From Tetrahymena thermophila SB210 (lineage: Eukaryota; Ciliophora; Oligohymenophorea; Hymenostomatida; Tetrahymenidae), in the NCBI RefSeq assembly GCF_000189635.1, contig NW_002476302.1:62001-126000 (forward strand): a DNA stretch of 64,000 nucleotides. Reading direction: 5' to 3'. The stretch's first letter is position 1, and every line of letters begins with the position of its first letter. Below are positions 12,172-55,834 of the stretch, one piece after another. The notes beneath the pieces are model-generated. The model was given only the letters and a program-made list of their open reading frames with translations. It was not told the DNA's origin and did no database searches. A program made the translations under genes and the position numbers.

Positions 12172-12455
12172 ACTTTAATAAAGCTTAAATTATAAAATCT
12201 ATATAAATTTCTAAATACTAACATTTTATATAAAATAGTATGTCAATGTCAATGTAAATGATCAATTTATAAAAATTAAACAAAAATATTATTTTTATTT
12301 AAATTAAATATTAAATTACATTTATTAAAGTATAAAAGACAGACAAATGATAAATGATAATTAGTTAAAATTTATTTGAAATATTGATTGAAATGTTTAA
12401 AAAGTTAATTTTGGGATAGGGTTAGTAGAGTATTTTTAAATATTTTTGTTTGAAA

Positions 12456-17631: not shown

Positions 17632-18269
17632 TGAAAATAATTAAATAAATTATTATTAAAAAAAGAAAGAATGAATGAATTTTAAACATAAATTTAAATA
17701 AGCTATTTATTTTTAGTGATTTATGAATTAATTACAATTTATTTTAACATAATTTATATTAATTTTATTACATAAAATATCTCAAAATATTGAATTATTT
17801 ATTCTAATATATTCTATTCAAATTGAAAAACCATGTTTATTTAATGGTATTTTATAAAAGAAATTATTTACTCTATATTTTCCTCTTTAAAAAGAATTAT
17901 AAAAAAAGATAAATTGATTTATAAATAGAAAGATATAATTTAACAAAATCTGAAAATAATTAAAAAAATTATTTTTAAAAAAAGAAAGAATGAATGAATT
18001 TTAAACATAAATTTAAATAAGCTATTTAATTTTAGTGATTTGTGAATTAATTACAATTTATTTTAACATAATTTATATTAATTTTATTACATAAAATATC
18101 TCAAAATATTGAATTATTTATTCTAATATATTCTATTCAAATTGAAAAACCATGTTTATTTAATGATATTTTATAAAAGAAATTATTTACTCTATATTTT
18201 ACTCTTTAAACAGAATTCTAAAAAAAGATAAATTGATTTATAAATAGATAGATATAATTTAACAAAATC
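17632..18269. repeat. 319-bp direct tandem duplication upstream of the second M1 peptidase
   Basis: Copy 1 is 17632-17950 and copy 2 is 17951-18269, with a constant offset of 319 nt and only a few mismatches (mostly near the left end and scattered substitutions). The right end of copy 2 stops two bases before the start codon of the downstream peptidase gene. The duplicated segment therefore contains the 5' untranslated and proximal promoter region of that gene in two copies. High identity in freely drifting AT-rich DNA suggests a recent event or conversion. Confidence 0.9.
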
Positions 18270-18271
18270 AT

Positions 18272-20454
18272 ATGAACCTAAAATATAAAGCAATTATTCT
18301 TTTATTAGCAGGTTTAGCTGCTAGCTTTGTGCTTATAAATAGCATACATAAAAAAGAGTATGACGATTCACTGGGAGTCAGAGTTCCTTATGTTGATCAG
18401 ACTAGTTACTCCAACTTACTAGAAATTAAAACCACTCACTTCCATTTAGACATTTAACTTGATTTTTCATTAAATTAAATTAATGGAACATAAACACTAT
18501 TCATGACAGCAACTAGAAGTGGCGCTAGTCATCTTGATTTAGATATTGATGGAATATAGGTATAATAAGTCAGAGAAGAAAGTTAAGGTGAGCTAAAATT
18601 TGTAGTTAACTATCCTAAAGAAGTAGTAACTGGTGAACAGTTGTCCATTTCTCTAAAAGAACCTCTAATTAAAGGAAAATAATATATTTTCTACATAGAT
18701 TATTCGGTTTAGAATTCTTCAGCATCATCATGGTTGACTCCATAATAAACAGCTTCCAAAATTTTACCGTAATTATTAATCTAATTGAAACCAAATAATA
18801 TTTTATTTCAATACCAATTGCATATTTTAATTAACTAACAACTTACATTTTGATAGATAATTTCTATTAGAAAGTTTAGTAAGTGGGTTTAATACAAAGT
18901 AAAAGTTAAAGATTAATGATAATAAATAACTTTTTAAAAATAATAGTTACTTATTTACTTAGTGTGAATCAACATATTGCAGAAGTTTAGCACCATTCTA
19001 GGACTCTCCCTATATCAAATCTACTTATTCTGCTAATGTAACTGTTTAGGATCCAATAAACATATTTTTAAGTGCTAATTTAACCTCAAAAATACCTCAC
19101 CCAACTTTAAAAGACTACTCTATTTACTCTTTTAGAATGGATATTCCTATACCTTCTTATCTTTTCACTATTGTAGCTGGTAATGTAGTCCTTTAAATGA
19201 TAGGTGAAAGAACTGGTGTTATTAGTGAACCTACTCACATTTAGGCATATGCAAACGAATTGAGTGATTTAGAACTGTATTTGTAAACTTTAGAAAATTA
19301 CACTATTCCTTACACATGGGGTAACTATCAAATTGTTATACTACCTCCTAGTTTCCCATTCGGAGGTATGGAAAATCCACTAGTTACATTTGCTTCTCCT
19401 TCAATAATTGTAGGTGATAAAAGTGGTGTTTAAGTTGCCATCCACGAAATTGCTCATAGTTGGTTTGGAAATTTAGTTACTTTGCTTAATTGGAGAAATG
19501 TGTGGATTAATGAAGGTTTAACTGTTTATCTTGAACGTTAAGCAAATTTAATTTTAGGAGGAGAAGATAATTATCTTATTGATTCTTATGTTGGAAATAA
19601 TACTTTGATGGATGACATGAATGGATATGGACTTAATAGTAACTATACTTCTTTGCATCCTTTCGTTAAAGGAACAAATCCAGATGATTCCTTTTCTAAC
19701 GTTCCTTATGAAAAAGGTTTTTAATTTGTAGCCTACCTAGAGACTGTTGTTGGTAAAGAATTCTTGCAAGGCTTTTTGCGCTCTTATTTGCAAAAATTCA
19801 AATATCAAAGTATTGATCATGTCACATTCCGTGAATTTTTCACTGAATACTTGATTCTCAATAACCCTAGAAAGGCATCCAAGATCTTAACTCAAATAAA
19901 TTGGGATGCTTGGATTAATGGAGTTGGCTTACCTCCTGTCATTCTGAACTTCACAACCCCAATAGTCCCTGAAACATAATAATTAGCAAAAGATTATATA
20001 AGGTATTCTGATTTTGTTTAAATGTTTTTTTAATAAAATTTAAATAATATATTAAAATAGTTTAAATGGAACTGCATCTCCTAGCAATTACGATTTCTTC
20101 AACTAAATCACCTTAAATGCAAAGACTATATTTTTGTAATATCTATTTGATAATTTAAGTTCAGTGAACACAGCTATCATTTAAAGAATCGATTAAGACT
20201 ACTAACTCTCCAACAGCACTAACATGGAACTCTAATGGAGATGGTATAGAGTAACAATCAAGGTCGGTTATAATGCTAATATTGAATAAATTCATTCCTT
20301 CCTTGGAAGTATTGGAAGATTAAAAATGATATCACCAGTTTACTAAGCTTTAGTTGAGACAAATTAAAAAGCTTTAGCATAGCAATATTTCAATGAATAC
20401 TAAAACTTTTATCATCCTATCGCTGTAATTGCTATCAAAAAGATTGTCTAATGA
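18272..20454 (+). CDS. M1-family zinc aminopeptidase (leukotriene A4 hydrolase-like), paralogue 2
   Basis: Exons 18272-18768, 18947-20002 and 20061-20454 give 648 residues and end at TGA. Both introns (178 and 58 nt, phase 2) sit at exactly the same protein positions as in the paralogue at 10 kb, so the pair arose by duplication after the introns were present. The N-terminus [19 protein letters not shown] is a signal peptide or anchor. Key motifs: GGMENP, zinc site [10 protein letters not shown] with the first His at residue 332 and the third ligand in [15 protein letters not shown], and [13 protein letters not shown] near the C-terminus. All expected catalytic residues are present. The substrate is not predictable; secretion or a lysosome-like location is inferred from the N-terminus. 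A TAA codon (Gln) precedes the TGA. Upstream is a 319-bp tandem duplication. Confidence 0.93.
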
Positions 20455-23766: not shown

Positions 23767-26259
23767 TCACTTACCACTTATTTCATCATTTTTAAAGTTT
23801 CCTTCATATTTATCTCCATTCCAGTATTCTAAAGTACCTTTGCCTTCTTTCTTACCTTTAACCCAATAGCCTTCATATTTTTTTCTAATGTCATTTTCAC
23901 TATAAAAATAAATACCTTTTCCATTAAAACTACCATTTTAGAATTATCCTTCATACATATCACCTTTTCTATACTCTAAAATTCCAAAACCTTCAAATTT
24001 ATCATTTACCCATTCACCTTCGTATTTCTTTAAGATACTTGTTTCACTGTAATAAAGTATTCCTTTGCCAATTTTTTAACCATTTTTGAAATTTCCTTCA
24101 TATTTATCTCCATTCAAATATTCTATTCCTTTTCCATTAAAACTACCATTTTAGAACTATCCTTCATACTTATTACCATTTCTAAATTCTAAAATTCCAA
24201 AACCTTCAAATTTATCATTTGCCCATTCACCTTCGTATTTCTTTGAGATATTTGCTTCATTATAATAAAGTATTCCTTAACCACTTCTTTAATCATTTTT
24301 GAAATTTCCTTTATATTTATCTCCATTCCAGTATTCTAAAGTACCTTGGCCTTCTTTCTTGTCATTAACCCAATAACCTTCATATTTTTTTCTAATGTCA
24401 TTTTCACTATAAAAATAAATTCCTTTTCCATTAAAAATATAGTTTTAGAACTACCCTTCATACATGTCACCGTTCCTAAATTCTAAAATTCCAAAACCTT
24501 CAAATTTATCATTTGCCCATTCACCTTCGTATTTCTTTAAGGTATTTGCTTCACTATAATAAAGTATTCCGTTACCACTTTTTTAACCATTTTTGAAATT
24601 TCCTTCATATTTATCTCCATTCAAATATTATTTTCCTTTTCCATTAAAACTACCATTTTAGAACTATCCTTCATACTTATCACCATTTCTAAATTCTAAA
24701 ATTCCAAAACCTTCAAATTTATCATTTACCCATTCACCTTCATATTTTTTTCTAAAGGCATTATCACTATAAAAATAAATTCCTTTTCCATTAAAAATAT
24801 AGTTTGAGAACTATCCTTCATATATATCACCGTTTCTAAATTCTAAAATTCCAAAACCTTCAAATTTATCATTTACCCATTCACCTTTGTATTTCTTTAA
24901 GATACTTGTTTCACTATAATAAAGTATTCCTTTGCCGCTTCTTTAACCATTTTTGAAATTTCCTTCATATTTATCTCCATTCAAATACTCTATTCCTTCT
25001 CCATTAAAACTACCATTTTAGAACTATCCTTTATACATGTTACCATCTCTAAATTCTAAAATTCCAAAACCTTCAAATTTATCATTTACCCATTCACCTT
25101 CGTATTTCTTTGAGATATTTACTTCACTAAAATAAAGTATTCCTTTACCACTTCTTTAATCATTTTTAAAATTTCCTTCATATTGATCTCCATTCCAGTA
25201 TTCTAAAGTACCATTACCTTCTTTCTAATCATTAACCCAATCACCTTCATATTTTTTTATAATCTTTTATTCGCTATAAAAGTAAATTCCTTTTCCATTC
25301 ATCTTTCCCTCTTTCATTTCACCTTAGTACCTATCACCATTTTAAAACTATTTTACAACAATTTATCCTTTTTGATTGTCTGAGTTACTCTTCTCAAACT
25401 ATTTCAATTCATCTAAACAAAATTGAAGATGAATTCTATTTTTAGGTTCTACGCTCATCATTTGAAAAGCTAAATTAACTAACTCTTTACACGGGTTTTC
25501 TTAAATAGAAGGAAATATCCCTTTCTTTATATTAATCATATTCAAACCAAATATGTTTATATTACAAAGAAAGCAAATAATACATCCTACTGAGTAAATA
25601 TCAGATTATTTACTAAGTTTACCTTCAATTTATTCTGGGGACATATAATCCAAACTTCCACCTTTTGAAATAGTGTGAGATTTAGATCCTAAGAGTTATT
25701 TAGACATTCCTAAATCACATATTTTTATTTTATCATCATCATTGATAAGAATATTTTAAGGCTTTAAGTCGCTGTGTATAATATTTTTATCATGAATAGC
25801 TAAAACACCTTCAATAATTTAAGTACAAATTTCAACGATTTCTTCTTTTTTAATATCGTTTTGTTTAAAAAAGTTAAACAGATTACCTTTTTAACAAAAC
25901 TCTGAAATGATAAAAAAGCATTCATTGTCTTCATCGTAAAGCTGCTAATAACTTTTGATGACGTTGGGATGATTAATTAAAAGGCATTTCTAATATTCTT
26001 AAATATTTTCTTTTAAAATATCAGCATTTGTTACAATGATAATCTTTATAGCTACATATCTTTTGCTATTCGAAGAATCAATAGCTTTCATAACAACACC
26101 GAAACTTCCAGAATCTATCAATTAAACTACAAGGTAGCCATATTATGATAGAAAGTTTATAGATTGCTAAATTTAGTTAGAAGTTATATAACTTTATTTA
26201 CTTTGCAAAAAATCTTTGATTTCCTCTTTGCTTAGCTTTTAAACTTCTTTGTTTTACAT
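23767..26259 (-). CDS. Kinase-MORN gene A: protein kinase with about 22 MORN repeats
   Basis: Single exon, 830 residues, ATG at 26259 to TGA at 23769-23767. The kinase domain (about residues 45-300) has Gly loop [15 protein letters not shown], lysine motif YVAIKI, catalytic loop [17 protein letters not shown] in [12 protein letters not shown] and SPE in DYMSPEQIEG. The usual HRD is HSD and DFG is DLG, so this is a non-RD kinase. The catalytic Asp, Lys and Asn are present, so it may be active. From about residue 311 on come MORN repeats in pairs of about 46-48 residues (pattern YEGxW / [10 protein letters not shown] / YEGNF / GKGIYFYSE). MORN arrays bind membranes or scaffold cytoskeletal assemblies in other proteins. 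The TGA sits where paralogous repeats have GGA (Gly), so the gene ends early compared with an ancestral array. It is one of four tandem paralogues on this strand. Confidence 0.9.
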
Positions 26260-27224
26260 TTTAAAATCCAATATTTAAATTAATTAATTAATCAATTAAT
26301 AAATAAATATTCTAATTAATCTATAAATAAATAAGTTAATCAAAAAAAATAATAAATCTTTAATTTTAAATGATAACCACAATCTTTTAATTAGATGATT
26401 ATAACAAATAATAATTTTTTATATTTAGTAATAAAGCCTTTTTTTATTATTTTTAAAATTATATTTTTATTTTAAATTAAATAAATATTTTTATAACAGT
26501 TTTATGAATTATAATATTATACTTTTAATTTTTTTTATTGAAGTTAAATGAAATAAAAATATTAAAACTCACTTAAATTTTTTTAGCTTTTAAAAACCTC
26601 TATTTTCACTTTAAGATTGAAATAATTTTTCAATAATTTAAATAAAATTCTAACTAAATTTACTTTAAAATTTTCATTATAATAATTAAGCATATTATTT
26701 TTTTAAATAATAATCAATTATAAATTTAAAATTTAATACATCATTTTAGTTAAGTAACTCTTATTACAAATTTATAATATTTTATACAATATTTAATTTA
26801 TTTTAATATAAAAAATTATTAAATTGATCAATTTATTAAATATTTAAATCATAATTTATAAGATTTAATTATTTAAAACTAGTGTTGAGCAAAATTATTT
26901 GATATAATTTGTTACAATTCGTGTATGTAGCATTGAAAAAGACAGTACCTTAGGGTACTATATGTATATATATTTAAAATTATTATTTTTATGTTTTTAA
27001 ATGCTATTAGTTAAATAAATTCTATAAGGGAAAAATGAAAATTAAAGAAAGCAATTTAAATATTAAAATGAATTAATGAGATAAAAATCAAACCTTTTAT
27101 TAGTATTACAAATAAATCTGAATTTTTATTAGATAACTCCGTTTTTATAGTCAAAAACAAAAAAAAATAACTATTATATAAAATAGCTCAAAACTATTAA
27201 TATTTATTTATTTTTATAATATTT
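26260..27224. other. intergenic region between kinase-MORN genes A and B
   Basis: AT-rich spacer with the promoter of A. The part at about 27005-27224 (AATTCTATAAGGGAAAAATG and following) is shared with the 3' flanks of genes C (about 29380-29540) and D (about 32880-33060), so the duplicated unit included 3' flanking DNA. Confidence 0.6.
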
Positions 27225-28856
27225 TCAATTAGTTTAAAATTTATCATCAATCCACTCACCATTAAGTTTTTAACCATTTTAATCTAATTAGATTCCTTTT
27301 CCATTCTTTTTCCCATTCTTGAAGTTTCCTTCATATTTAGTACCATTTTTATACTCTAAAATTCCAAAGCCTTCCTATTTATCATTAACCCATAATCCAT
27401 CATAGCTCTTTTTAATATCATCTTCTTTATAGTAGAAGATTCCCTTTCCATTAAATTCACCATTTTTAAACTACCCTTCATACCTATTCCCATTTTTATA
27501 TTCCATAATTCCAAAGCCATCTTTTTAATTACTAGCCCACTATCCTTCATACTTCTTTATATTGTCGCCTTGTTTATAGTAGTAGATTCCCTTTCCATTA
27601 AAATCATCATTTTTGAATTATCCTTCATACTTATTCCCACTTTTATATTCCAAAATACCAAAGCCATCTTTTTGATTATTAACCCACTATCCTTCATACT
27701 TCATTTTATTATCACCTTCTTTATAATAGTAGTAAATTCCCTTTCCATTAAAACAATCGTTTTTGAAGTATCCTTCATACTTATTCCCACTTTTATATTC
27801 CAAAATACCAAAGCCATCCTTTTTATCATTAACCCACTATCCTTCATACTTCTTTCTTATATTATCTTCTTTATAGTAGTAGATCCCTTTTCCATTCATC
27901 TTTCCATCTTTCACTTCACCTTCGTATCTATCACCATTTTAAAACTATTTTACAACAATTTCTCCTTTTTGATTGTGTGAGTTAATCTTCTAAAACTATT
28001 TCAACTAATCTAAAGAATCTTGAAGCTAAATTCTATTTTTAGGCTCTACACTCATCATTTTAAAAGCTAAATTAACTAACTCTTTAAAGCAATTTTCCTA
28101 TATAGGAGGAAATATCCCTTTCTTTATATTAACCATATTCAAACCAAATATGTTAACATTACAAAGAAAGCAAATAATACATCCAACTGAATATATGTCA
28201 GATTATTTACTAATCTTACCTTCAATTTATTCTGGTGACATATAATCCAAACTTCCACCTTTGGAAATGGTGTGAGATTTTGATCCTAAAAGTTATTTAG
28301 ACATTCCTAAATCACATATTTTTATTTTATCATCATCATTGATAAGAATATTTTAAGGCTTTAAGTCGCTGTGTATAATATTTTTATCATGAATAGCTAA
28401 AACACCTTCAATAATTTAAGCACAAATTTCAACAATTTCTTCTTTTTTAATATTGTTTTGTTTAAAAAAGTTAAACAGATTACCTTTTTAACAAAACTCT
28501 GTAATGATAAAAAAGCATTCATTCTCTTCATCATAAAGCTACTAATAATTTTTGATGACGTTGGGATGATTAATTAAAAGGCATTTCTAATATTCTTAAA
28601 TGTTTTCTTTTAAAATTTCAGTATTTGTTACTATGATAAGCTTTATTGCTACATATCTTTTGCTATTCGAAGAATCAATAGCTTTCATAACAATACCAAA
28701 ACTTCCAGAATCTATCAATTAAACTACATGGTAGCCATATTATGATAGAAAGTTTATAGATTGCTAAATTTAGTTAGAAGTTATTTAACTTTATTTACTT
28801 TGCAAAAAATCTTTGATTTCCTCTTTGCTTAGCTTCTAAACTTCTTTGTTTTACAT
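27225..28856 (-). CDS. Kinase-MORN gene B: protein kinase with about 10 MORN repeats
   Basis: Single exon, 543 residues, ATG at 28856 to TGA at 27227-27225. The kinase part is nearly identical to that of gene A, with HSD in the catalytic loop and DLG in place of DFG. The MORN array (about residue 308 onward) is the shortest of the four. Its last full repeats end [26 protein letters not shown] and a degenerate cap LNGEWIDDKFQTN before TGA. The same cap motif ends gene C and, out of frame, gene D, so it is the ancestral C-terminus of the family. The opposite strand is open by chance (27570-27980) because the MORN repeats have a regular codon pattern. It probably phosphorylates proteins at a membrane or cytoskeletal site held by the MORN array; this is inference. 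Confidence 0.9.
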
Positions 28857-29542
28857 TATAAAAACCAATATTCTAATAAATCTATTAAAAAATATATTTT
28901 TTTAATAAATATTAAACTAAATATAGTTAATCAACAAATATACAATTAATCATTAGTTTTAAATGAGGATCACAATAAAGAAAATATAAATTTTTATTTC
29001 AACTAATATGGTCAAATAAATAAAAAATAAAATGTACCATAAGTTCTGTTTATTTAAATGTGACCTTAAGGGAAATTTAATAAAAATATTTTATATTTTT
29101 AAAAATCTAAAATTTTAAAAAAGCTGTTAATTAAAATAATTACCTAGAATCAATCATTCGCAATAATCTGCAAATCTTCTTATAAATAATATTCTCAATA
29201 TAAATTTAATATTTTTATTAAACTAATTAGAAAATTTATTACTAAACTTATCAATAATTCAAATTTAAATATATCAAAATTGACCCAAAAATTATGATTT
29301 CTAAAAACAAAAATAGTAATAATTTACAAATTTTTAGGAAAAATTCTTATTTTTAAGTTTTTAAATGCTGGTAATTTAATAAATTCGATAAGGGATAAAT
29401 GAAAATTAAGGAAAGCAAACAAAATCTTAATATTAGTGAATGAGGTAAAAATAAAATAATTTTTAAGGATTACACTGAAGTTTTATAAGATAACTCAACT
29501 TTTATTGTCAAAAAAAAAATAATAACTATTATATCAAATAGT
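28857..29542. other. intergenic region between kinase-MORN genes B and C
   Basis: AT-rich spacer with the promoter of B. The part from about 29380 repeats the 3'-flank sequence seen after genes B and D. Confidence 0.6.
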
Positions 29543-31657
29543 TCAAAACTATTAATATTTACTTATTTTATAATATATTTAATTATTTTAAAATTTATCA
29601 TCAATCCACTCACCATTAAGTTTTTAACCATTTTAATCTAATTAGATTCCTTTTCCATTCTTTTTCCCATTCTTGAAGTTTCCTTCATATTTAGTACCAT
29701 TTTTATACTCTAAAATTCCATAGCCTTCCTATTTATCATTAACCCATTATCCTTCATATCTCTTTCTAGTATCATCTTCATTATAGTAGTAGAAGATTCC
29801 CTTTCCATTAAAATGATTATTTTTAAACTACCCTTCATACATTGAGCCATTCTTCCATTCAAAAATTCCAAAACCTTCAAACTAATCATTTACCCATTCA
29901 CCTTCATATTTCTTTGAATCATATCTTTCACTGTAATATATTACTCCTTTGCCATTTCTTGAGCCATATTTGAAATTACCTTCATATCTACTCCCATTTT
30001 TATATTCCATAATTCCAAAACCTTCTTATTTATCAGAGACCCACTCTCCTTCATACTTTTTTTCTTAATCTTAATCACTATAATAGTAAATTCCTTTTCC
30101 ATTAAAATCACCATTTTTAAAATACCCTTCATACCTCTAGCCACTCCTCCATTCCAAAATTCCAAAGCCTTCAAACTAATCATTTAACCATCCACCTTCG
30201 TATTTCTTTGAATTATTTGTTTTACTGTAATATAATACTCCTTAGCCATTTCTTGAGCCATTTTTGAAATTACCTTCATACCTATTTCCATTTTTATATT
30301 CCATAATCCCAAAACCTTCTTATTTATCCGAGACCCACTCTCCTTCATACTTTTTTTCTGAATCTTAATCTCTATAATAGTAAATTCCTTTTCCATTAAA
30401 ATCACCATTTTTAAATTACCCTTCATACCTCGAGCCGCTCCTCCATTCAAAAATTCCAAAACCTTCAAACTAATCATTTACCCATTCACCTTCATACTTC
30501 TTTGAATCATATGTTTCACTGTAATATATTACTCCTTTGCCATATCTTGAGCCACTTTTGAAATTACCTTCATACATATTCCCATTTTTATACTCCATAA
30601 TTCCAAAACCTTCTTATTTATCAGAGACTCACTCACCTTCATATTTTTTTTTTGAATCTTGCTCTCTATAATAGTAAATTCCTTTTCCATTCATCTTTCC
30701 ATTTTTCATTTCACCTTCGTATCTATCACCATTTTAAAATTACTTTACAATAATTTCTTGTTTTCGTTTTTGATTATCTGAGTTACTCTTCTTAATTAAT
30801 TTCAACTAATCTAAGCAATCTTGAAGCTAAATTCTATTTTTAGGCTCTACACTCATCATTTGAAAAGCTAAATTAACTAATTCTTTATAGGAGGTTTCTT
30901 ATATAGAAGGAAATATCCCTTTCTTTATATTAACCAAATTCAAACCAAATATGTTAATATTACAAAGGAAGCAAATAATACATCCAACTGAGTAAATGTC
31001 AGATTATTTACTAATCTTACCTTCAATTTATTCTGGGGACATATAATCTAAACTTCCACCTTTTGAAATGGTCTGAGATTAGGATCCTAATAGTTATTTA
31101 GACATTCCTAAATCGCATATTTTTATTTTATCATCATTATTAATAAGAATATTTTAAGGCTTTAAGTCGCTGTGTACAATATTTTTATCATGAATAGCTA
31201 TAAGACCTTCAATTATTTAAGAGCAAATTTCAATAATTTCTTCTTTTTTAATATTATTTTGCTTAAAAAAGTTAAACAGATTACCTTTTTAACAAAACTC
31301 TGTAATGATAAATTAGCATTCATTCTCTTAGTCATAAAGCTGCTAATAATTTTTGACGACGTTCGGGTGATTAATTAAAAGGCATTTCTAATATTCTTAA
31401 ATATTATCTTTTAAAATGTCAATATTTGTTACTATGATTAGCTTTATTGCTACAAATTTTTTGTTATTCTAAGAATCAAAAGCTTTCATAATAACACCGA
31501 AACTCCCAGAATCTATCAATTAAACTACATGGTAGCCATATTATGATAGAAAGTTTATAGACTGCAAAATTTAGCTAGAAGTTATTTAACTTTTTTTGCT
31601 TTGCAAAAAATCTTTGATTTCCTATTCGCTTATCTTCTAATCTTTTTTGCTTTACAT
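29543..31657 (-). CDS. Kinase-MORN gene C: protein kinase with about 17 MORN repeats
   Basis: Single exon, 704 residues, ATG at 31657 to TGA at 29545-29543. The kinase domain follows the family pattern (HSD catalytic loop, DLG). The MORN array starts near residue 312 and uses a somewhat different repeat subtype from D (for example WNGGxARGYEGxF and [11 protein letters not shown]-like units). After the family cap LNGEWIDDKF the frame runs on for about 16 residues (QNNQIYYKISKYQQF) to the TGA, whereas gene B stops four residues after the cap. Frames were checked across the array and no internal TGA is present. Function as for the paralogues: a kinase tethered by MORN repeats, target unknown. 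Confidence 0.9.
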
Positions 31658-32215
31658 TTTAAAATCCAATATTCTAATCTCTTAATAAATATTCTAATTA
31701 ATCTAAAAATAAATATTTTTACAATAAATATTAAACTAAGTATTTAATGAAAGAAACAATAAATCTTTAGTTTTATATGAGAACCATAAAAAAATAAAAA
31801 TAAATTTTTATTTCAATAGAATATTGTCAAATATAGCATATGAATAAGCTATAAATTAGATTAATAAAATAAGTAATAATTTTTTTATTTAGACATTAAG
31901 ATTTTTTTATCAATTTTAAAATAAAATTATTTATTCTAATATTTTATGAATTACAATATTATAATGTTAATTTATTTTTATTGAAGTAAAAATTTATAAA
32001 AATAGTAAAATTTTATTATTTTTTTAGTTGGGTTGAAAGAATTTTTAAATAAAATAAAACCTAAATTTATTTTAATTTATTTTACAGTTAATTAATTTAA
32101 ATAATTTATTTATCTCATAAATTTATTAAAATAAAAATGAAAAATAATTCTTAAATTTTATGAGCTATTAACAAATATAATAACCAAGTTTTAAATATAC
32201 TTAATTCAAAAATTA
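31658..32215. other. intergenic region
   Basis: AT-rich spacer upstream of kinase-MORN gene C; nothing recognised. Confidence 0.55.
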
Positions 32216-32644
32216 TATTTTAACAGAAGCATATTTTAATAAAATAAACTGAATAACTCCTACTAAATGTATATTTTATTTTTTATAATATGTTTTTATT
32301 GTAAACTCTTTGTAGAATAATATTTCTTTTTCTTATCCTCTTTCATCTTTTTCTCTTCTAATATATAAGTAAGGCTCCTATAAATATTCTATTACTTTAA
32401 ATGGCTTGATTATAGTTTGTTTTCTATCTAAATTTTGGTGTCATGCAAATATTTTAATGGATTTAAAGCTAAATAATCATCATTTTATATAATAAAATCT
32501 TATGTATGAGATTATACTTTAATCTAATTGGTTTTTTCTCCAACATTATCATTTAACTAGTTTGTATTTGGATTTTAATGATTCAGTATGTCCTGTTCAT
32601 TTTGGTTTTTTAGATAATTTATTTAAATTAATTATTCATACATT
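32216..32644 (-). CDS. Small Gln/Lys/Asn-rich protein, copy 2
   Basis: 142-residue frame, ATG at 32644 to TGA at 32218-32216, with TAA/TAG as Gln. It begins MYEQLIQINYLKNQNEQDIL and continues NHQNPNTNQLNDNVGEK, which matches the frame at 22.7-23.1 kb. The middle has a Lys/Glu cluster (EEKKMKEDKKKKYY). No domain, signal or membrane segment is seen. It lies about 0.4 kb beyond the end of kinase-MORN gene D, mirroring the copy beyond gene A, so it was probably carried along when the kinase gene duplicated. Whether it is a real protein is uncertain: in this code frames of this size can occur by chance, but shared protein-level similarity with copy 1 favours a real or formerly real gene. Confidence 0.45.
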
Positions 32645-33057
32645 AAAAAAAAAATTACTACATCAAAGTAATAATATTTCTCTTTTTTATTTTATTTTTT
32701 TGAACAAAATTGACCCAAAAAATTATGGATTGTAAAAACAAAATTAAAAAAAATACTATACTATTTCATTAAAATATATTTATCAGTTAGAGTGCTTGTG
32801 CTTAACAACTTGAGCTTGCTAAAATAGCAATAATTTACAATTTTTTAGGGAAAATTATTATTTTTTTTTTATAAATGTTATTAGTTTAATAAATTTGATA
32901 AGGGATAAATGAAAATTAAAGAAAGCAATCAAAATCTTAAAATGAGTTAATGAGGTAAAAATTAAACCTTTTATAAGGATTAAAATTAAATCTGAAATTT
33001 TATTAAAAAACTCCGCTTTATAGTTAAAAATAAAAAATAACTATAATATCAAATAGT
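32645..33057. other. intergenic region downstream of kinase-MORN gene D
   Basis: AT-rich; carries the family 3'-flank sequence (about 32880-33057) also found after genes B and C. Part near 32640-32700 resembles DNA downstream of gene A. Confidence 0.55.
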
Positions 33058-36000
33058 TCAAAACTATTAATATTTATTTATTTCTGTAATATTTTCAATT
33101 ATTTTTAAATTTATCATCAATCCACTCACCATTAACTTTTTAATCAATATAATCTAATTAGATACTTTTCCAATCTTTTTCCCATTCTTGAAGTATCCTT
33201 CATATTTAGTACCATTTTTATACTCTAAAATTCCAAAACCTTCCTATTTATCATTAGCCCATTATCCTTCATACTTCTTTCTTTTGTCACCTTCATTAAA
33301 GTAGTAGATTCCCTTTCCATTAAAATTATCATTTTTGAATGATCCTTCATACTTACCCCCATTTTTATATTCCAAAATACCAAAGCCTTCTTTTTTATCT
33401 TTAGCCCACTATCCTTCATACTTCTTTCTATTGTCACCTTCATTATAGTAGTAGATTCCCTTTCCATTAAAATCGCCATTTTTGAATGATCCTTCATACT
33501 TATCCCCATTTTTAAATTCTAAAATACCAAAGCCATTCCTTTTACCATTAGCCCACTATCCCTCATACTTCTTTCTATAGTCACCTTCATTAAAGTAGTA
33601 GATTCCCTTTCCATTAAAAAGATTATTGTCGAATTATCCTTCATACTTATCCCCATTTTTAAATTCCAAAATACCAAAGCCATTCCTTTTACAATTAGCC
33701 CACTATCCCTCATACTTCTTTTCACAGTCATCTTTATTAAAGTAGTAGATTCCCTTTCCATTAAAAAGATCATTGTCGAATGATCCTTCATACTTATCCC
33801 CATTTTTAAATTCCAAAATACCAAAGCCATTCCTTTTACCATTAACCCACTATCCCTCATACTTCTTTCTATTGTCACCTTCATTATAGTAGTAGATTCC
33901 CTTTCCATTACTAAGATCATCTTTGAACTACCCTTCATACTTATCCCCATTTTTATATTCTAAAATACCAAAGCCTTCTTTTTTACTATTAGTCCACTAT
34001 CCTTCATACTTCTTTCTTATGTTATCTTCTTTATAATAGTAAATTCCCTCTCCATTAAAAAGATCATTGTCGAATGATCCTTCATACTTATTCCCATTTT
34101 TCAATTCTAAAATGCCAAAGCCTTCTTTTTTACAATTAACCCACTATCCCTCATACTTCTTTCCACAGTTACCTTCATTAAAGTAGTAGATTCCCTTTCC
34201 ATTAAAAAGATTATTGTCGAATGATCCTTCATACTTATCCCCATTTTTAAATTCCTAAATACCAAAGCCATTCCTTTTACCATTAACCCACTATCCCTCA
34301 TATTTCTTTCCACAGCCACCTTCATTATAGTAGTAGATTCCCTTTCCATTAAAAAGATTATTGTCGAATGATCCTTCATACTTATCCCCATTTTTAAATT
34401 CTAAAATACCAAAGCCATTCATATTATTATTAGCCCACTATCCCTCATACTTCTTTCTATAGTCACCTTCATTATAGTAGTAGATTCCCTTTCCATTAAA
34501 AAGATTATTGTCGAATGATCCTTCATACTTATCCCCATTTTTAAATTCCAAAATACCAAAGCCATTCTTTTTACAATTAGCCCACTATCCCTCATACTTC
34601 TTTTCACAGTCATCTTTATTAAAGTAGTAGATTCCCTTTCCATTACTAAGATCATCTTTGAATTATCCTTCATACTTATCTCCATTTTTCAATTCTAAAA
34701 TGCCAAAGCCTTCTTTTTTACTATTAACCCAATATCCCTCATATTTCTTTCTACAGTCACTTTCATTATAGTAGTAGTAGATTCCCTTTCCATTTAAAAG
34801 ATTATTGTCGAATGATCCTTCATACTTATTCCCATTTTTAAATTCCAAAATACCAAAGCCATTCCTTTTACCATTAGCCCACTATCCTTCATACTTCATT
34901 CCACAGTCACCTTCATTATAGTAGTAGATTCCCTTTCCATTACTAAGATCATCTTTGAACTACCCTTCATACTTATCCCCATTTTTATATTCTAAAATAC
35001 CAAAGCCTTCTTTTTTACTATTAACCCAATATCCCTCATATTGCTTTCTACAGTCACTTTCATTATAGTAGTAGTAGATTCCCTTTCCATTTAAAAGATT
35101 ATTGTCGAATGATCCTTCATACTTATTCCCATTTTTAAATTCCAAAATACCAAAGCCATTCCTTTTACCATTAACCCGCTATCCCTCATACTTCTTTCTA
35201 TTGTCACCTTCATTATAGTAGTAGATTCCCTTTCCATTTAAAAGATTATTGTCGAATGATCCTTCATACTTATCCCCATTTTTAAATTCCAAAATACCAA
35301 AGCCATTCCTTTTACCATTAGCCCACTATCCTTCATACTTCATTCCACAGTCACCTTCATTATAGTAGTAGATTCCCTTTCCATTAAAAAGATCATCTTT
35401 GAACTATCCTTCATACTTATCCCCATTTTTATATTCTAAAATACCAAAGCTTTCTTTTTTACTATTAGCCCACTATCCTTCATACTTCATTCTTATATTA
35501 TCTTCTTTATAATAGTAGATTCCCTTTCCATTCATCTTCCCATCTTTCATTTCACCTTCGTATCTATCACCATTTTAAAACTAAATTACAAAAATTTTTC
35601 CTTTTTGATTGTGTGAGTTAATCTTCTAAAACTATTTCAACTAATCTAAAGAATCTTGAAGCTAAATTCTATTTTAAGGTTCTACACTCATCATTTTAAA
35701 AGCTAAATTAACTAACTCTTTAAAGGAATTTTCCTATATAGGAGGAAATATCCCGTTCTTTATATTAACCATATTCAAACCAAATATGCTAACATTACAA
35801 AGAAAGCAAATAATACATCCAACTGAATATATGTCAGATTATTTACTAATATTACCTTCAATTTATTCTGGGGACATATAATCCAAACTTCCACCTTTTG
35901 AAATGGTGTGAGATTTAGATCCTAAAAGTTATTTAGACATTCCTAAATCACATATTTTTATCTTATCATCATCATTGATAAGAATATTTTAAGGCTTTAA

Positions 36001-36492
36001 GTCGCCATGTACAATATTTTTATCATGAATAGCTAAAACACCTTCAAAAATTTAAAGGCAAATTTCAACAATTTCTTCTTTTTTAATATTGTTTTGTTTA
36101 AAAAAGTTAAACAGATTACCTTTTTAACAAAACTCTGTAATGATAAAAAAGCATTCATCCTCTTCATCATAAAGCTGCTAATAATTTTTGATGACGTTGG
36201 GATGATTAATTAAAAGGCATTTCTAATATTCTTAAATGTTTTCTTTTAAAATTTCATTATTTGTTACTATGATAAGCTTTATTGCTACATATCTTTTGCT
36301 ATTTGAAGAATCAATAGCTTTCATAACAATACCGAAACTTCCAGAATCTATCAATTAAACTACATGGTAGCCATATTATGATAGAAAGTTTATAGATTGC
36401 TAAATTTAGTTAGAAGTTATTTAACTTTATTTACTTTACAAAAACCCTTTGATTTCCTCTTTGCTTAGTTTCTAAATTTCTTTATTTTACAT
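33058..36492 (-). CDS. Kinase-MORN gene D: protein kinase with about 34 MORN repeats
   Basis: Single exon, 1144 residues, ATG at 36492 to TGA at 33060-33058; no TGA interrupts the frame. The kinase domain is the family type, but the catalytic loop reads NIVHGDLKPQN (HGD rather than HRD or HSD), with DLG at the metal-binding site. The array from about residue 307 is by far the longest of the four and very regular: units of about 47 residues such as NGNKYEGSFDNNLLNGKGIY, then [20 protein letters not shown], then EGFGILE. Several units are near-identical at DNA level, pointing to recent internal amplification. Near the end (about 33145-33195) one base is missing relative to gene B, so the family cap motif is replaced by about 30 unrelated Ile/Lys/Asn-rich residues. 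Start and strand are set by the kinase domain. Confidence 0.9.
33195..35570 (-). repeat. Amplified MORN-coding minisatellite in gene D
   Basis: About 2.4 kb of head-to-tail units of roughly 135-147 nt, each encoding two MORN repeats. Long stretches such as the segment containing TATCCCCATTTTTAAATTCC recur many times almost unchanged. Unit-length changes stay in multiples of three, so the frame is kept until the last unit. Confidence 0.9.
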
Positions 36493-47859: not shown

Positions 47860-49089
47860 ATGGATTCTTTGAAAAATATTTTAGCAAAAAAAAAGGAAAC
47901 GGTTTAAAAGCAAGGATAGGTTGTTAAAAAAGCTGACTTAGAAAAGGAAAGAGAAGAGAATTACTGGAAATAATAGGCTGAAATACAAAAATAGGAAGAA
48001 TTAAGAAAATAATAATATTTGGAAGATTTGCAAAAATATTAAGCTAATCCTTACAAAAAATTAAAGAAAGATGAAAAAAAGGATGAAGGTTAGTAAAATG
48101 AAAACAAAGAAGAAGAATAGCCTCCTATACCTAAAGCAGAAGTCATTAAAAAATTGAGATAATTTGGAGTTCCTGTAACTTTTTTTGGTGAAACTGATTA
48201 ACAAAGATACAAAAGATTAAAAAAACTAGAACTTGATGCTACTGAAAATAAAAATTAGGGTGGTAACGTCTATGATAAAATTTTAAAAATGAATGAGGAA
48301 GACTTCAAAAAGAAATAAAGAGAGGAAGCTGATTATATTGATGAAGAAAAAATTTAAAAACTTTTTGCAAGGTTAAACTAACCAGAATAAAATATTAGTA
48401 CTGAAAAGGTAACTAATAAAAAGCAGTAAGAATTAGAAATAGAAAAACTTAAGCAAGTGTCTAACGATACTAAAAATGAAGATATTTTAATATGGAGTTA
48501 AAAAACACTTCGTGATTGGGAGTAGAAATTAGAATAGAGATTCACAACTGATGAATAGAAAAAATCTGTTTTAGCAAGAAAATTAATTGGTAATTTCCGT
48601 CAAACATCAGAGTACTTGAAACCTTTGTTTAAGCTTTTAAAAGAAAAGAAATGTAGTTAAGATATTCTAGATGGATTATACATAGTCGTAAATTATGCAT
48701 TATAAAGGGAGTATGTAAAAGCAAATGACAAATATTTAGCCTTAGCTATTGGTAATGCTGCTTGGCCTATGGGTGTCACAATGGTTGGTATCCACGAAAG
48801 AGCTGGTCGTTCCAAAATTTTTAGTTCTTAAGTTGCACGTAAAATTCTATTAAAATAAATTAAAATTTCTTTAAATGAAAATAATTAATAAAAAAGATAT
48901 ATTAAATGATGAAACAACCAGAAAGTATTTGTAATCAATGAAGAGACTTGTTACAGTTTAATAGCTTATGTATCCTTCTGAAGATAAAGCTAAGATGATA
49001 AATTATGACAGTAAATATTTTTTTAATTTAAATAAAATAATATTAATCTATATTTTAAATAATTAGCAACAATGGAGGAGTTATTTTGA
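47860..49089 (+). CDS. PRP18: Pre-mRNA splicing factor Prp18
   Basis: Exons 47860-48838, 48897-49010 and 49067-49089 (introns 58 and 56 nt) give 371 residues to TGA, close to human PRPF18 (342). The N-terminus is charged and coiled. Around residues 95-120 is the PRP4/SFM-type motif [20 protein letters not shown], shared by splicing factors Prp4 and Prp18. The C-terminal Prp18 domain has the diagnostic conserved loop ending [20 protein letters not shown], then [28 protein letters not shown] and [14 protein letters not shown]. Prp18 acts with Slu7 at the second step of pre-mRNA splicing, stabilising the 3' splice site in the U5-containing spliceosome in the nucleus. The last exon encodes only TTMEELF after an intron whose removal gives a normal end; reading through instead would append unrelated AT-coded residues. 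Confidence 0.96.
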
Positions 49090-49410: not shown

Positions 49411-52400
49411 TCATTGATTTGTTTTTAAATTGTTAACAAATTCATTTAGTTAAATTTCCTCTTATGCTTTATCGATTTTTTCTTCGTTTTTCTTAAATAT
49501 TCTTTTTGGGGTATTCATATGATCATTAATTTCAAATATGTCTTCATCATCACTTTGATTATTAGCTTCTTCAGCTGGTAAAACTTCTCCTTTTTGCTAA
49601 TATTCTTTGATTTTATCTTCAATATCTAAAAATTCATAAACTGGATAGTAGAAACCTCTTAAAGTGAATAAAAGAATTATTTTCGATTTTTCTGATTGTG
49701 AAAATATTTTGATAAAGCAAAAGCTTATAAGGATGATAATATCAAGAATGTTATCAATAACGAAGGAAGCAAATACAGAGGTAAAGAAAAATTAATTTTG
49801 TTAGCTGTTAAAGGAGAGAATAAGGATAATTATTGGTATTCCCATTCCAGCTTGCAACATAAATACCAAACCATAGTTCATTAAATGGAAAATTTTAAGA
49901 CTTTTAGTGACTTACTCTACTATTTCTGTAGTTATTTTGTCCTGCTTAAAATCTAACCATTTTTACTTGATATACCATTTCATTTTGAAAAGATTTACCA
50001 TGCAAATAGTCAAATAATATGTTACGATAGAACAAGCAACTGAAGTTGAGCTTATCTAAATGCTAATTATTTATCTTTTACCTACATTTTACTATAGCTC
50101 TTATTCACTTGGAAGACTATAAACTAGCACAAAAATAGCATTATATAGAAATAGATTTATAATTAGTTAGGCATAATTAATACTACGCTGTAAACGAGGA
50201 AAGAAACTTGAGTAGGGTCCAAAAATCAGAGAATAAATTGGATGTACCAACCAATAAGAGTCTGACTCCTTAATATATGTTTCTTAGTCTTTCCTATCTC
50301 TAATGATACTTATTACTATAAAAATAGTAATAAAGATGATATATATTAATAAGGCATATAACAGAGATAAATTTGGATTAAAACTAGATTGACTCACTTA
50401 AGGGTTTTCATTTGTTCCATTATTATTATTTGAATTTATTAGTTGATTTATGAAGTTTATAAATTATTAGTCATTAGCATAAATCTATTAAGTAGCATTC
50501 CAAATCACAGTTAAAGAAAGATTTGGATCAATATACTCTTAATTAACAATAACTCCATAATTTCCTGATATCTACTCACTTCCACATATTACATGAGTAG
50601 AATTTTCTCTTAAATATTACACTCCGTCTTATTTATAAACCTAAGAAACCTTTTAAAAGTTGTAAAATAAATTTAACATTAATTAATTATTTTTAATTTA
50701 AATTCAAAATTTTTACTGAATCGAAGTATATGCAAGTGTATGGCTAGTAGAAAGGTCTTATAACTGAAAGAATAGGAGTAGGTAGTATTTTAGGGATAGC
50801 TATTTCAACTATCTAACTAACAGTTGAGATTTGTATTTCTGTTTATTATGAATAAATAACTAACTCAGTTATACAACTTATAAATGGTGCTTAATATTAG
50901 CTTTATGAAAGAAATGGGTTTGAATTCCATTTGATAACTGCTGTTGACAGTGATGATTTGGGTGAAAATTAAGTAATATCGAAAGTATATGATATTTAAT
51001 CTCCATAAAACACAATCGGTGTTTGTTATTGACCATCTGAAGCACCATTATTTGACATGAAAGCATCTAATAAATCATTTTAATAAATTAAATTCAAATT
51101 TATATTGGAAATATCTGTTTAAAATGATGTTTAAACTTATTCCTAACTTTTCAAATCATCAAATGATTTTGCAAAATTTTATAAATATAAATTAATTTGA
51201 GAATCAAAATCGTTCATTGTTTTCATGAGCAAAGATTGCTAGTCATTATAAGATAGTGTTTAGTCTTCATTTATGAGATTTATTAATTAAGAAGTTAATT
51301 TAGAAATCTTAAAGAGGATTTTTTCATCAGATATATTTGATTACACTCTCTAAAGCTGATTAAATACTTGGAAGTAAACATTTATCAGTGTGTTAAGTGT
51401 AAACTCATCAAAAATGCTGTAAAAATATGTAAGTTCTAAAAGAACTTCTATTGTAAAAAACAAATCGCTTGATTTATTTAATGGAATATTGCTAATTAGA
51501 TCAGTTAGGGCTATTAAATGCTACCTTGCAATGTCAAGCTGATAGCTATTTTATTTAAAATAAAATTTAATTTAAAGTTTTTTTTGTAAATAAAATTATT
51601 ACGATTAAAATTCGCAGTATCTACCAGCATAATTAATATTACAAATACATAAAATTTCATTATAGTTATCTTAGCTCCAAAGGCATTTTCCGTTTCCTGA
51701 GCAGTTGATATTCGAATCACATGGTATCTGTACACCCTTTAAGGAAGAATAAACCTAATTTAATTTTAATTATTTTTTATTTTATCTAATATTTTATCAA
51801 TAAATACATACCTGATAAAACAAATGCCTATTAAAGATAGTCTAGCTAGTTGTTTATGATGACATCAAATTTTGCATTTAACTGTAAAATTAATAAGATA
51901 AGCTTTGTATTTGTTGCAAAGTTGTGATTTTAGAGTAAACTGAATCTAAAAATTCATCAATAGATATAGTTGTTTGTTGAAGATTTAAATTCAGGGCGAT
52001 TAATAACTGCTATATTTAAACATCGAAGTCGTTATAAATGACTAAAAAGAATTATGCTTTGTTGTCTTAAAGATCATAACTTAAGTTTGGTATTAAGTAG
52101 GTAAATCTGCCATCTTAATAATTTTAACCTTTATCGAAAAAGAAATAATCGTTTCCAGTTAATTTTACATATAAATCAAAGCTAATGTTGTCAGGAACTG
52201 AGTTAAATAACCATCCGCTAATGATTAAAGTCAACTATAAATAAGCACTATTTATCTCAATGTTGAAGTTTCCTTTTGTTATAGCATTCATTGTTTAAAA
52301 TGTTTATTACACCATACAATCATTTTCATTCTAGCAGTTGTTCGCTAAATCAAGAATAGAAGCTTATATAGTGTACTAAGTGTTGCTTTATAAACTTTTT

Positions 52401-55400
52401 GGAGGAAAAACTATGTAGTCAAAACGATTTTAAATATAACTCTGGATAGGGCCATTGCTTATATCAGTATTTCCAGTAAATAGTCTCCATTTAATAGAAA
52501 ACAGATTTTTAGAGTAGACAAGTAATTACAAACTAATAGTCTAGCTATTATTATTTACACTATTTCCTAAATTTTATGCAAATTAGATACTAGGTTTAGA
52601 ATTAAAGCTGCAATTCTCCTTCTAGGCTGTAGTTCCAAAAGGACACTATGTGAAGCAAAGCCCTAATAAAAACTAATATCCAGAACTACATCCATTAATA
52701 CAATTGTAAAGACAAGGAGAACACTGAGGAATTGAAGGATCTTGCTAATAATAACCATCAAGGCATGTGCTACTACAAGTTGTAATATCTAGATGTAATA
52801 AATACCCGCTTGAACATTTTGTGCACTGTGAACTGCTCTTTCCAAAACATTAAATGCAATTCTAGTGGCAAGAATAGCATTATTTATTAACGGAATCATA
52901 ATAGAAACCTTTAAGATGAAAAATTTTTTATCTTATTTAAAAAAATTTACATTTATAAATATTTTTTACCTATATCGCATTGAGTATCAGTTTAGCTTAC
53001 TTTTTTCTTACAAACATCAAACAACAAAGTGTAATCTGTTGTTGTTTGACAGCTTATACATGAATCATATGTGGTTCCTGAGCATGTAGAACAATACGGG
53101 AAACAAGTTAAACATTGTCCATCATATAAATATTAACCAGGTTTACAAATCGGTTAATTCAAACAATCAGTTATATTTGGTCCTAAGCATTCGTTATTTG
53201 AGCTACATTAGCTACATTATTAGCAAGTTCCATCAGTTTTCAAATACGATCCTTTAGGACAAGATATGCATTAATTATTTGCTCCACCATAGCACTCTAA
53301 GCATGAAGCATCACATGGAATACAAGCCTATTATGTAGTATCTACATAAAATCCAATTAAAGGGCATTGCTAAACACATGAGTTAGTTTAACTATATAAG
53401 AAATACCCCTAATTACAAGATTGACAAGTATTCATATCAGTGCAAGAAGCACATTATTAAGGACAAGGATAGCATACATTGTAATTCTATTAAAGATAAT
53501 AACCATTTAAGCACGATATGCATGAGTTAAATGTACCGTTAGTGCAACTAGAACATCCAAACCCACAAAGAGAGCATTAATTTGTTGACGAATTCATATA
53601 AGTACCATCAGAAGCACAAAAACTTTTGCATTCTGGCTTTAGATACTCTAAGAAATATCCATTCATACAGGAATAGCATGATTTATTATTTCCATTAAAG
53701 CAAGAGGAGCATTCTTAAGAGCAAGGCAAACATGCTTAAGTCGTTTTATCTCCATACATCGGATTATCTAAAATTATTAAAGTTAATATATAAATTATAA
53801 AATGAAAAGTATATTATATTTGTATTTACTTTAGCTTGATGGACAAGTATAGTAGCACTAATTATTGTATTTAAATAACATATTATTTGAGTCGTATATT
53901 TGACATGTTATGCAATCTATGTTATATTTATTTATTTTTAAATATTTTAAACATGAAATATTTATTTTACCAGTTTATGCGGGGCCTTAACATGTTTAGC
54001 ATTATTAATTACATACCTAACAAGAATTATTTTTGCTATTTTAATAAAAACCTTTAGGACAAGCAGGAACACAGTTTTATTAAAAAACTGTTCCTTGAGG
54101 CCCATTGTAAGTAATTTGAGCAAATATGTAAGTTTATCCTTAGACCTATCCATTAGGAGTATAGGTAGCACATGTTAAACAAACTGAAGCACTTAAGCAA
54201 GTTTGACAAGGGAATACACAAGGAAGACACGATCTAGTTGCTTCATCTTAATAATAAGTCTAATCAGGGCATGTTTTAACACATGTACCGTTATAAAGAT
54301 AATATCCTCTTTTGCACAAAATAGGTTTTATCAAATCGAAATTACTTTTATCTTGTTCGCATTACTCCATTTCATTAGGGCAATAGTCACAAATTGGTTG
54401 TTTCAAAGGATCTATTTTTTATTTATTTATTTTTACAGAAATTCTAAGGAAAAAATGTTTTCTCAATAATATTTTAATTACCTGCATACTATCTAGCAAA
54501 TGTGTAAAAGCCAACAGGACAAATAACCAAACATTAAGTTTTATATAAATAATATCCAGTTTTGCATGCTGTACATTATTAATTATCTGCTCCAAAGCAT
54601 TCTGAGCATGCTGTATTACAAGAAAGACATAAAGAGCTATTTTAATAGTTTCCATTAGGGCAATTATTCTAGCAGGAGGAAGGAGACCCAGATGTTAATG
54701 AGTATCCGTTCTGACATTGTAAACATCCTTAATTAGTTTAATCAGAGCAATTTTTGCAAGTAGCATTACATGGAAGACACCTTTAAGTAGCAGCATCTAC
54801 CACATATCCAGATACACAATTTTTAACACATAATTAGTTTTCAATATCTAAAAAGTAACCTGACACACAACTTAAACAAGATTCGACTGTAGAAGGATTC
54901 GATGGATTTGTATTATAACAAGTTTGGCAACCAGTAGGGCAAATTTTACAAATTCCATTTATTTTATATTGAAGCTATGGACAAGTGCTAACACATTAAT
55001 TTGTTGCTGTATTTAAGTACATATTATCTTTACAAGTTAAACATTATTATGCATTAGTTTAACTACATGTTCTACAATTATTATCACAAGGTATACATAA
55101 AAGCTATTAGCTTGCTCCTATATTTACAATTTACTAGGTATATCCATCTTCACACTACTTTAAACAACTTGAATTAATCTAATTATAGTAAAATCCAACA
55201 CTGCAAGCTAAACACTATGTATTTTTGTTCCCAAAACATTAAGTACATGAACTGTCACATGCTTAGCAAATACAACTACTTCCAGAACAACTTACATATG
55301 TTTAAGCCTAAGGACATTAAGTCAAACATTAATTTTAGTATAGATAGAAACCTAAATTATTAAATACAAATTTTAATATTTTTTAAGTAAATATTATTTA

Positions 55401-55834
55401 AGATTAGCTTAAAGATTTAATTTCATTGAATTAATTTCTTTTTTTAAGTTAAAAGTATTCACAATTTTTAAATTTCTACTATATGTGATTTAAAAGAAAA
55501 ATGGATAAAACTCTTTTTGTTTATATAAGCATGTTAATTTAATAAATTTTTATGGATGCCCTAGGCCTTTAATAATAAATATCTAAATTTAATAATTACC
55601 ATTTTAGCATTAAGTACAATAAGTTGGATAATAATTACAAGCACTACAAGCCTAATCACAATTTGCGCATAGGCCTAAATTACTATCATAATATTATCCA
55701 TTTGGACACTATATTGCAGTACAGCTTCCTTAGGTCATTTAATATCCAGTTGGGCAAATAGATTATGCAAATATATTTTTCTTTAAAACAAATATCAAAG
55801 CTAATATGTTAATTAGCTCCTTTTTGAATTTCAT
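49411..55834 (-). CDS. Polycystin-1-like surface protein: GFR repeats, REJ-like region, EGF-like module, GPS-like motif, C-terminal membrane domain
   Basis: Minus-strand exons 55834-55600, 55351-54482, 54411-53971, 53916-53830, 53767-52970, 52908-51812, 51754-50717 and 50649-49411; 1934 residues to TGA. All eight junctions keep frame. A signal peptide (INILALIFVLKKNIFA) is followed by about 850 residues of furin/growth-factor-receptor-like Cys-rich repeats (C-x2-C with xCTxCxxGYYL patterns). Then comes a REJ-like region (SIKWRLFTGNTDISN, VFPPKSLQSNTQYTIQASIL), an EGF-like module near 1177-1226 (CSGNGKCLW to CICNINYAGRYCEF), a helical stretch, and a GPS-like motif at about 1515-1555 (YTCIYFDS joined to VSQVYKQDGV, then STHVICGSEQISGNYGVIV). 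At least five membrane segments follow. PYSSFFPRLQRSINYAQLII resembles the polycystin-1 segment around its conserved R-x-Q-R. No PLAT domain is seen between the first two membrane spans. A surface mechanosensor or adhesion receptor role is inferred. Intron 53917-53970 is 54 nt and could be read through. Confidence 0.85.

Follow-up and report, generated by a model that had tools for sequence, protein, structure and literature searches.

A diverged CRMP-like receptor gene with a decayed cleavage site in Tetrahymena thermophila

The receptor gene, its relatives and its surroundings

The stretch of DNA discussed here ("the window") comprises 64,000 nucleotides of Tetrahymena thermophila SB210 (contig NW_002476302.1, positions 62,001 to 126,000). 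On its minus strand, from 55834 to 49411, lies a gene of eight exons and 1934 codons, the last codon ending at 49411 (code 6; for window and genome alike, TAA and TAG were read as glutamine). Its seven introns all have GT..AG borders, are 54-248 nt long and have a GC content of 9-16%. A first-pass annotation, made from the letters alone, had proposed this eight-exon, 1934-residue model with the module order signal peptide, Cys-rich GFR repeats, REJ-like region, EGF-like module, GPS-like motif and membrane domain; model and order were reproduced exactly, and the observation is thereby confirmed. Judged from its sequence, the encoded protein belongs, as a highly divergent member, to a ciliate family of GFR-EGF-GAIN-multi-helix receptors; CRMP-like is the most fitting label for it, and its cleavage site has decayed. 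The polycystin-1-like identity suggested by the annotation fared less well, as discussed below.

Searched as a whole against Pfam (E value up to 1), the window protein matches Furin-like_2 (5e-12), VSP (3e-10) and GF_recep_IV (2e-8), and weakly DUF7018 (0.006, below the cut-off), while REJ, GPS, PLAT and PKD_channel gave no match in this search. Hydropathy places five transmembrane (TM) helices in the protein, with a short loop between TM1 and TM2. The absence of PLAT, which the annotation had noted as apparent, agrees with both the Pfam result and this short loop.

The genome examined spans 101 Mb in 445 contigs. Used as a query against it, the window protein matched nothing but itself, and the relatives were therefore reached through a genome-wide search for the GPS family. 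This search returned seven places, none within the window receptor gene; six of them fall in long genes (L019-L024), which are diverged relatives of the window protein. The models of L020, L021, L023 and L024, and probably that of L019, are truncated where the retrieved sequence begins, leaving their N-termini incomplete. The seventh place is a GPS fragment (L013/L025) on a 10-kb contig (G000:C298). Its frame of 128 residues repeats the L012/L019 GPS, of which it is either a partial copy made recently or a variant of the assembly, and it was excluded from the family alignments for this reason.

In the window protein and its six relatives alike, GFR repeats are followed by a REJ-like region, an EGF-like module (which in L019 is incomplete), GAIN/GPS, TM1, a loop and further helices. 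Between 7 and 24 CxxCxxxCxxC units precede the GPS in the six relatives. The cytoplasmic TM1-TM2 loop is short in the window protein and L020 only. Two of the relatives, L023 and L024, lie ~15 kb apart (G000:C91), and both combine a canonical GPS with a very long predicted loop. The helices beyond the loop start with an H-P-x-x-S motif, in which the serine is found in all seven members and HP in four. Five post-GPS helices are predicted in five of the seven (the window protein, L019, L020, L022 and L023) at one or the other of two hydropathy thresholds. Pfam detects the GPS in every member except the window protein and EGF in four of seven, at best with 0.00058 in a relative compared with 0.032 in the window protein; the EGF-like module of the annotation holds.

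Models built from the relatives with the window protein left out recover it at 43 bits. The GPS part alone scores 14.4 bits (7.6 being the best of 2000 shuffles), and GAIN together with GPS, without EGF, gives an E value of 0.0027. At the level of sequence, membership of the window protein in the family is established through the EGF-like module and the GPS. The features of the gene are collected in Table 1.

Table 1. Features of the receptor gene, in window coordinates.
Feature	Position	Strand	Basis or remark
Receptor gene, whole, 8 exons, 1934 aa	49411..55834	-	Gene model
Exon 1	55600..55834	-	Holds signal peptide, residues 1-24, at 55763-55834 (judged by eye)
Exon 2, GFR repeats	54482..55351	-	Gene model
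Exon 3, GFR repeats	53971..54411	-	Gene model
Exon 4, GFR repeats	53830..53916	-	Gene model; the preceding in-frame 54-nt intron was left unselected by the gene finder
Exon 5, GFR repeats	52970..53767	-	Gene model
Exon 6, GFR end and REJ-like region	51812..52908	-	Gene model
Exon 7, EGF-like module, most of GAIN region, GPS start CIYFDS	50717..51754	-	Gene model
Intron 7, 67 nt, interrupts GPS	50650..50716	-	Gene model
Exon 8, remaining GPS, five helices, cytoplasmic tail	49411..50649	-	Gene model
Cys-rich GFR/furin-like array, residues 27-911	52607..55756	-	Pfam and 14 CxxCxxxCxxC units
REJ-like region, residues 912-1130	51950..52606	-	Collinear with relatives
EGF-like module, residues 1187-1223	51614..51724	-	Pfam EGF 0.032
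GAIN region to GPS, residues 1224-1550, spans intron 7	50566..51613	-	Leave-one-out models; pre-GPS core undetected by sequence
QIS, residues 1548-1550, at HLT cleavage-triad position	50566..50574	-	Family alignment
TM1, residues 1611-1642	50290..50385	-	Hydropathy
HPIYSLIF...RLQR segment and TM2, residues 1658-1703	50107..50244	-	Hydropathy; family and polycystin-1 alignments
TM3-TM5, residues 1725-1841	49693..50043	-	Hydropathy

Tail to tail with the receptor gene, a Prp18/PRP4-like splicing factor gene (Prp18, 2e-39) occupies 47860-48981 of the plus strand. Tandem predicted genes, in which MORN-like repeats come after a protein kinase domain, fill 23767-36492 on the minus strand (Pkinase 7e-45 and MORN 2e-5 in the one copy checked), and this array coincides with a strong GC skew at 24-36 kb of the window. 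Two adjacent predicted genes with similar N-termini, putatively M1-aminopeptidase-like, lie on the plus strand at 10041-20454.

The GPS and its cleavage site

A profile of the seven EGF-GAIN-GPS regions, the window protein included, matches chains of adhesion G protein-coupled receptors (GPCRs), most strongly at the GPS (ADGRF1, 1.4e-7). Longer and weaker matches extend to ADGRG2 and latrophilin-1, and ADGRD1, ADGRL3 and many EGF modules are also matched. The GPS-like end that the annotation had read across intron 7 is supported by way of the relatives, through the 14.4 bits of their model and the Pfam GPS matches in all six, but not by a Pfam GPS match in the window protein itself. The predicted introns that interrupt the GPS in L021, L023 and L024 are six codons off the window's GPS intron, an offset that rules out a shared intron position.

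Within the family the cleavage site is preserved to different degrees. HLT and all four GPS cysteines are present in four relatives (L020, L021, L023 and L024), and L019 and L022 are without the second and fourth cysteine, yet keep HLS or HLT. In the window GPS the same two cysteines are gone (DGV, CGS) and the triad reads QIS, a degeneracy that the annotation did not mention. According to the family alignment, the second and fourth cysteines are both present in four members and both absent in three; because L019 and L022 group in the family tree, this absence may reflect two losses rather than three. The histidine of the HLT triad is required for self-cleavage. Since HLT has become QIS and one cysteine pair is lost, the window protein is probably uncleaved. 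GPS self-cleavage at HLT or HLS falls after the leucine (PMC9672506, PMC11697300; published work is cited here and below from the portions of each text that were available).

The REJ-domain family and polycystin-1

The REJ-like region is best discussed at the level of the family. One of its seven members, L021, matches PF02010 (4.7e-5, 22.6 bits, against a cut-off of 25), while the window protein alone gives no significant REJ match. Elsewhere in the genome there are 74 PF02010 matches, which define a REJ-domain family. Five predicted proteins of this family were inspected, and REJ parts, TM1 and a GPS-like site occur in every one of them. GFR repeats are present in the three that are not truncated, and TM2-5 are reached in four, opening with FHQFFSIF-like motifs. 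At the cleavage site, 18 distinct REJ-type GPS sites among the retrieved loci read xPT in place of HLT; since the pattern admitted only T or S preceded by P or L, other forms would escape this count.

Profile against profile, the two families align at the TM2 region, with a score of 37.8 (E 5e-5, probability 67%) that exceeds every one of 300 column shuffles (maximum 26.2), and at the GPS, where the six members without the window protein were compared with the 18 REJ-type sites (score 34.4, probability 57%, E 1e-4; none of 200 as high, maximum 22.7). The REJ-like regions give a score of 20.8 (E 0.065), which exceeds all 200 column shuffles narrowly (maximum 20.0). Ordinary hidden Markov model searches with the TM2-5 model of either family did not list the other at an E value of 0.1. 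These results make a polycystin/REJ link plausible at the family level, as judged from L021 and the tie to the REJ-domain family, and to this extent the REJ-like region of the annotation stands, although the protein itself has no Pfam REJ match. The inspected proteins of the REJ-domain family share with the receptor family GFR repeats (in the three untruncated ones), a GPS-like site, TM1, a loop and, where the model reaches, TM2-5 with an H-x-x-x-S/G-I-F opening. The REJ-domain family differs by its strong REJ and by xPT for HLT in the 18 sites; EGF was not noticed there, where no search was dedicated to it.

The REJ-domain genes partly form clusters (G000 contigs C25, C223, C150, C19, C148 and C134), several of them on contigs of 15-37 kb; the scores of three copies on C408 and C410 are identical. 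Repeats of CCCCAA at both ends are typical of Tetrahymena macronuclear chromosomes; the one contig examined for them carries them at its first bases and, on the opposite strand, at 465.6-465.9 kb, which is probably its other end.

Alternatively, the protein could be a true polycystin-1 relative that has REJ, GAIN and TM1-5 without PLAT and channel and that partners a polycystin-2 channel in cilia. The REJ match of L021, the ties to the REJ-domain family at the GPS, TM2 and, narrowly, REJ, and the PKD_channel matches elsewhere in the genome (seven, six of them over the family cut-off) would all fit such a protein. So would the alignment of its TM2-TM3 with human polycystin-1 (sequence from PDB 6a70), which is in register with a score of 55; of 10,000 shuffles that preserve residue class, 9 do as well, and of 699 control segments none does. 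The best control, however, scores 53, and the ungapped score is unremarkable, 8 of 150 shuffles being as good. When 19 family members were compared with polycystin-1, the window protein (none of 400 class shuffles as good), L021 (3 of 400) and possibly also L032 (8 of 400) were alone in standing out, and most members showed nothing. Moreover, profiles of the membrane part searched against PDB gave weak unrelated matches and missed polycystin-1, hhalign of the membrane part against polycystin-1 remained non-significant (E 0.12-0.25), and the C-terminal part of the window protein matched no PDB sequence. No PLAT was found in the genome, in a search whose control was equally silent.

A resemblance between the membrane part and human polycystin-1 is therefore no more than suggestive: the TM2-TM3 alignment speaks for it and the profiles do not. 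The view that this part has been demonstrated to be that of polycystin-1 is rejected as stated, because the single-sequence signal is unsupported by profiles. A true polycystin-1 relative is an unlikely description of the gene. Collectively, the annotation's interpretation is supported in part, for a multi-pass receptor with GFR repeats, an EGF-like module, a GPS-like end and family-level REJ; the identity with polycystin-1 is unsupported in the form proposed. PLAT and channel are lacking, and the closest published match appears to lie with the alveolate CRMPs and not with a ciliary polycystin.

Placement among known receptors

Tetrahymena has two CRMPs, TtCRMP1 (TTHERM_00442310) and TtCRMP2 (TTHERM_00637180), described as having an EGF-receptor domain, five predicted helices and, by HHpred, GAIN; mucocyst discharge depends on both, as rhoptry secretion does on the corresponding apicomplexan proteins (PMC9670195). 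Compared by architecture, these proteins, rather than polycystin-1, would be the closest published match of the window protein. We consider that the gene probably encodes a ciliate CRMP-type surface receptor composed of a GFR array, a REJ-like stalk, an EGF-like module, GAIN/GPS, five helices and a short tail. With five helices its topology would be N-out/C-in, and the GAIN fold would be complete. In this model, the GFR array outside the cell would bind a ligand or a neighbour, and binding or pull would reshape the end of GAIN together with the strand buried in it (SGNYGVIV). As in adhesion receptors, the strand would then act on the helices. It would do so without prior self-cleavage, since QIS stands in place of HLT and one pair of GPS cysteines has been lost. 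By analogy with TtCRMP1 and TtCRMP2, the output might be triggered regulated exocytosis (of mucocysts) or a related contact response.

Several observations weigh against this placement. Membership among CRMPs is drawn from shared architecture, not from an alignment. L021 and L024 show only four helices by hydropathy. The window protein forms the longest branch of the family tree, without firm placement, and its function may for this reason have drifted. In the leave-one-out test its GAIN core without EGF and GPS went undetected (-3.2 bits, with shuffles up to 8.5), and its REJ-like and membrane parts were each non-significant. The AlphaFold models, from single sequences, are poor for the membrane part (part of exon 8; pLDDT, a per-residue confidence measure, 47.6) and for most of exon 7 (pLDDT 41.7, with 70 reached by 36 of 329 residues), and Foldseek gave no match at an E value of 0.001 or better. 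The low-confidence exon 7 model has helices and then strands, the order expected of GAIN; taken together, such models are uninformative and neither support nor refute the fold.

GFR repeats on a five-helix membrane part also characterize MTA, MTB and MRC1, each with GFR and five TM helices and all part of the mating-type recognition complex (PMC10901506), and the window protein could be a cell-cell recognition receptor of this kind. The likeness is one of architecture only. By description, order and size of the Cys-rich part differ: the furin-like stretch of MTA/MTB measures ~80 residues and lies within the terminal TM exon (PMC3608545), whereas the window array is long and far N-terminal. Moreover, the available text of PMC10901506 and PMC3608545, in which no dedicated search for these words was made, does not mention REJ, EGF or GAIN for MTA, MTB or MRC1. 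This alternative strikes us as improbable. Least credible is a decaying or purely structural coat protein of GFR repeats on a membrane anchor with a non-functional GAIN end: the longest branch, the loss of triad and cysteine pair, and a VSP-type Pfam match reflecting Cys-rich repeats would suit it, but the 1934 codons are open, splice sites are intact and helices retained, and the loss of the two GPS cysteines as a pair, likewise in L019 and L022, suggests ordered change.

If the CRMP-type reading holds, a polycystin-like module set stands beside a family with a known part in the regulated secretion of ciliates and apicomplexans, and the origin of REJ, GAIN and the polycystin membrane unit becomes testable in a genetic model. 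The intact and decayed cleavage sites among relatives of one genome would provide a natural test of the purpose of GPS self-cleavage. REJ and GAIN beyond animals are not new in themselves, since GAIN predates Holozoa (PMC12716839) and a brown-algal multi-pass protein has REJ and GPS (PMC4700764). Two reviews, in their available text, attribute GAIN to adhesion GPCRs and the PKD1 family only (PMC9672506, PMC11697300), so that a large ciliate GAIN branch would widen the field's picture. In the literature outside subscription papers we found no paper on Tetrahymena with a REJ domain, nor one with a GAIN domain and polycystin. For Tetrahymena with a GAIN domain PMC12716839 alone was found, though PMC9670195 words the domain otherwise. 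The words polycystin, PKD and REJ are absent from the main text of PMC9670195, and polycystin and PKD from PMC9815656.

More tentatively, and with the odds rather against it, CRMPs, the large REJ-domain family of ciliates like Tetrahymena, perhaps MTA/MTB/MRC1, and animal polycystin-1 may be branches of one ancient plan with a REJ-like stalk, GAIN and a five-helix unit. PLAT and the cation channel would then be later additions in the polycystin branch, and self-cleavage would have been lost repeatedly (in the window gene and at the 18 GPS sites of REJ type). If this is true, a single receptor module would serve ciliary sensing, gamete recognition and the triggering of secretion.

With the polycystin-1/sea urchin REJ (PKD1) family, the window receptor has in common a family-level REJ-like region, a GPS before TM1 (degenerate in the window protein) and a multi-pass membrane part. 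It differs in its GFR and EGF modules, which take the place of PKD repeats or lectin, in the lack of PLAT and of the TM6-11 channel, and in a REJ that is non-significant in the window protein; among SpREJ members the number of TM helices ranges from 0 to 11, and PLAT occurs in 5 of 10 (PMC1934368). Adhesion GPCRs share the GPS/GAIN, as seen in the profile matches above, and differ in having seven helices, not five, and in the HL[TS] triad that the window protein has lost. The CRMPs of Toxoplasma and Plasmodium have nine helices and in some cases Kringle and lectin-like domains, and the degenerate GPS may set the window protein apart from CRMPs, to which it is likened by described architecture. 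With CRMPs it shares EGF-receptor/GFR-type repeats (Furin-like_2 and GF_recep_IV in the window protein), five C-terminal helices and the GPS end of GAIN.
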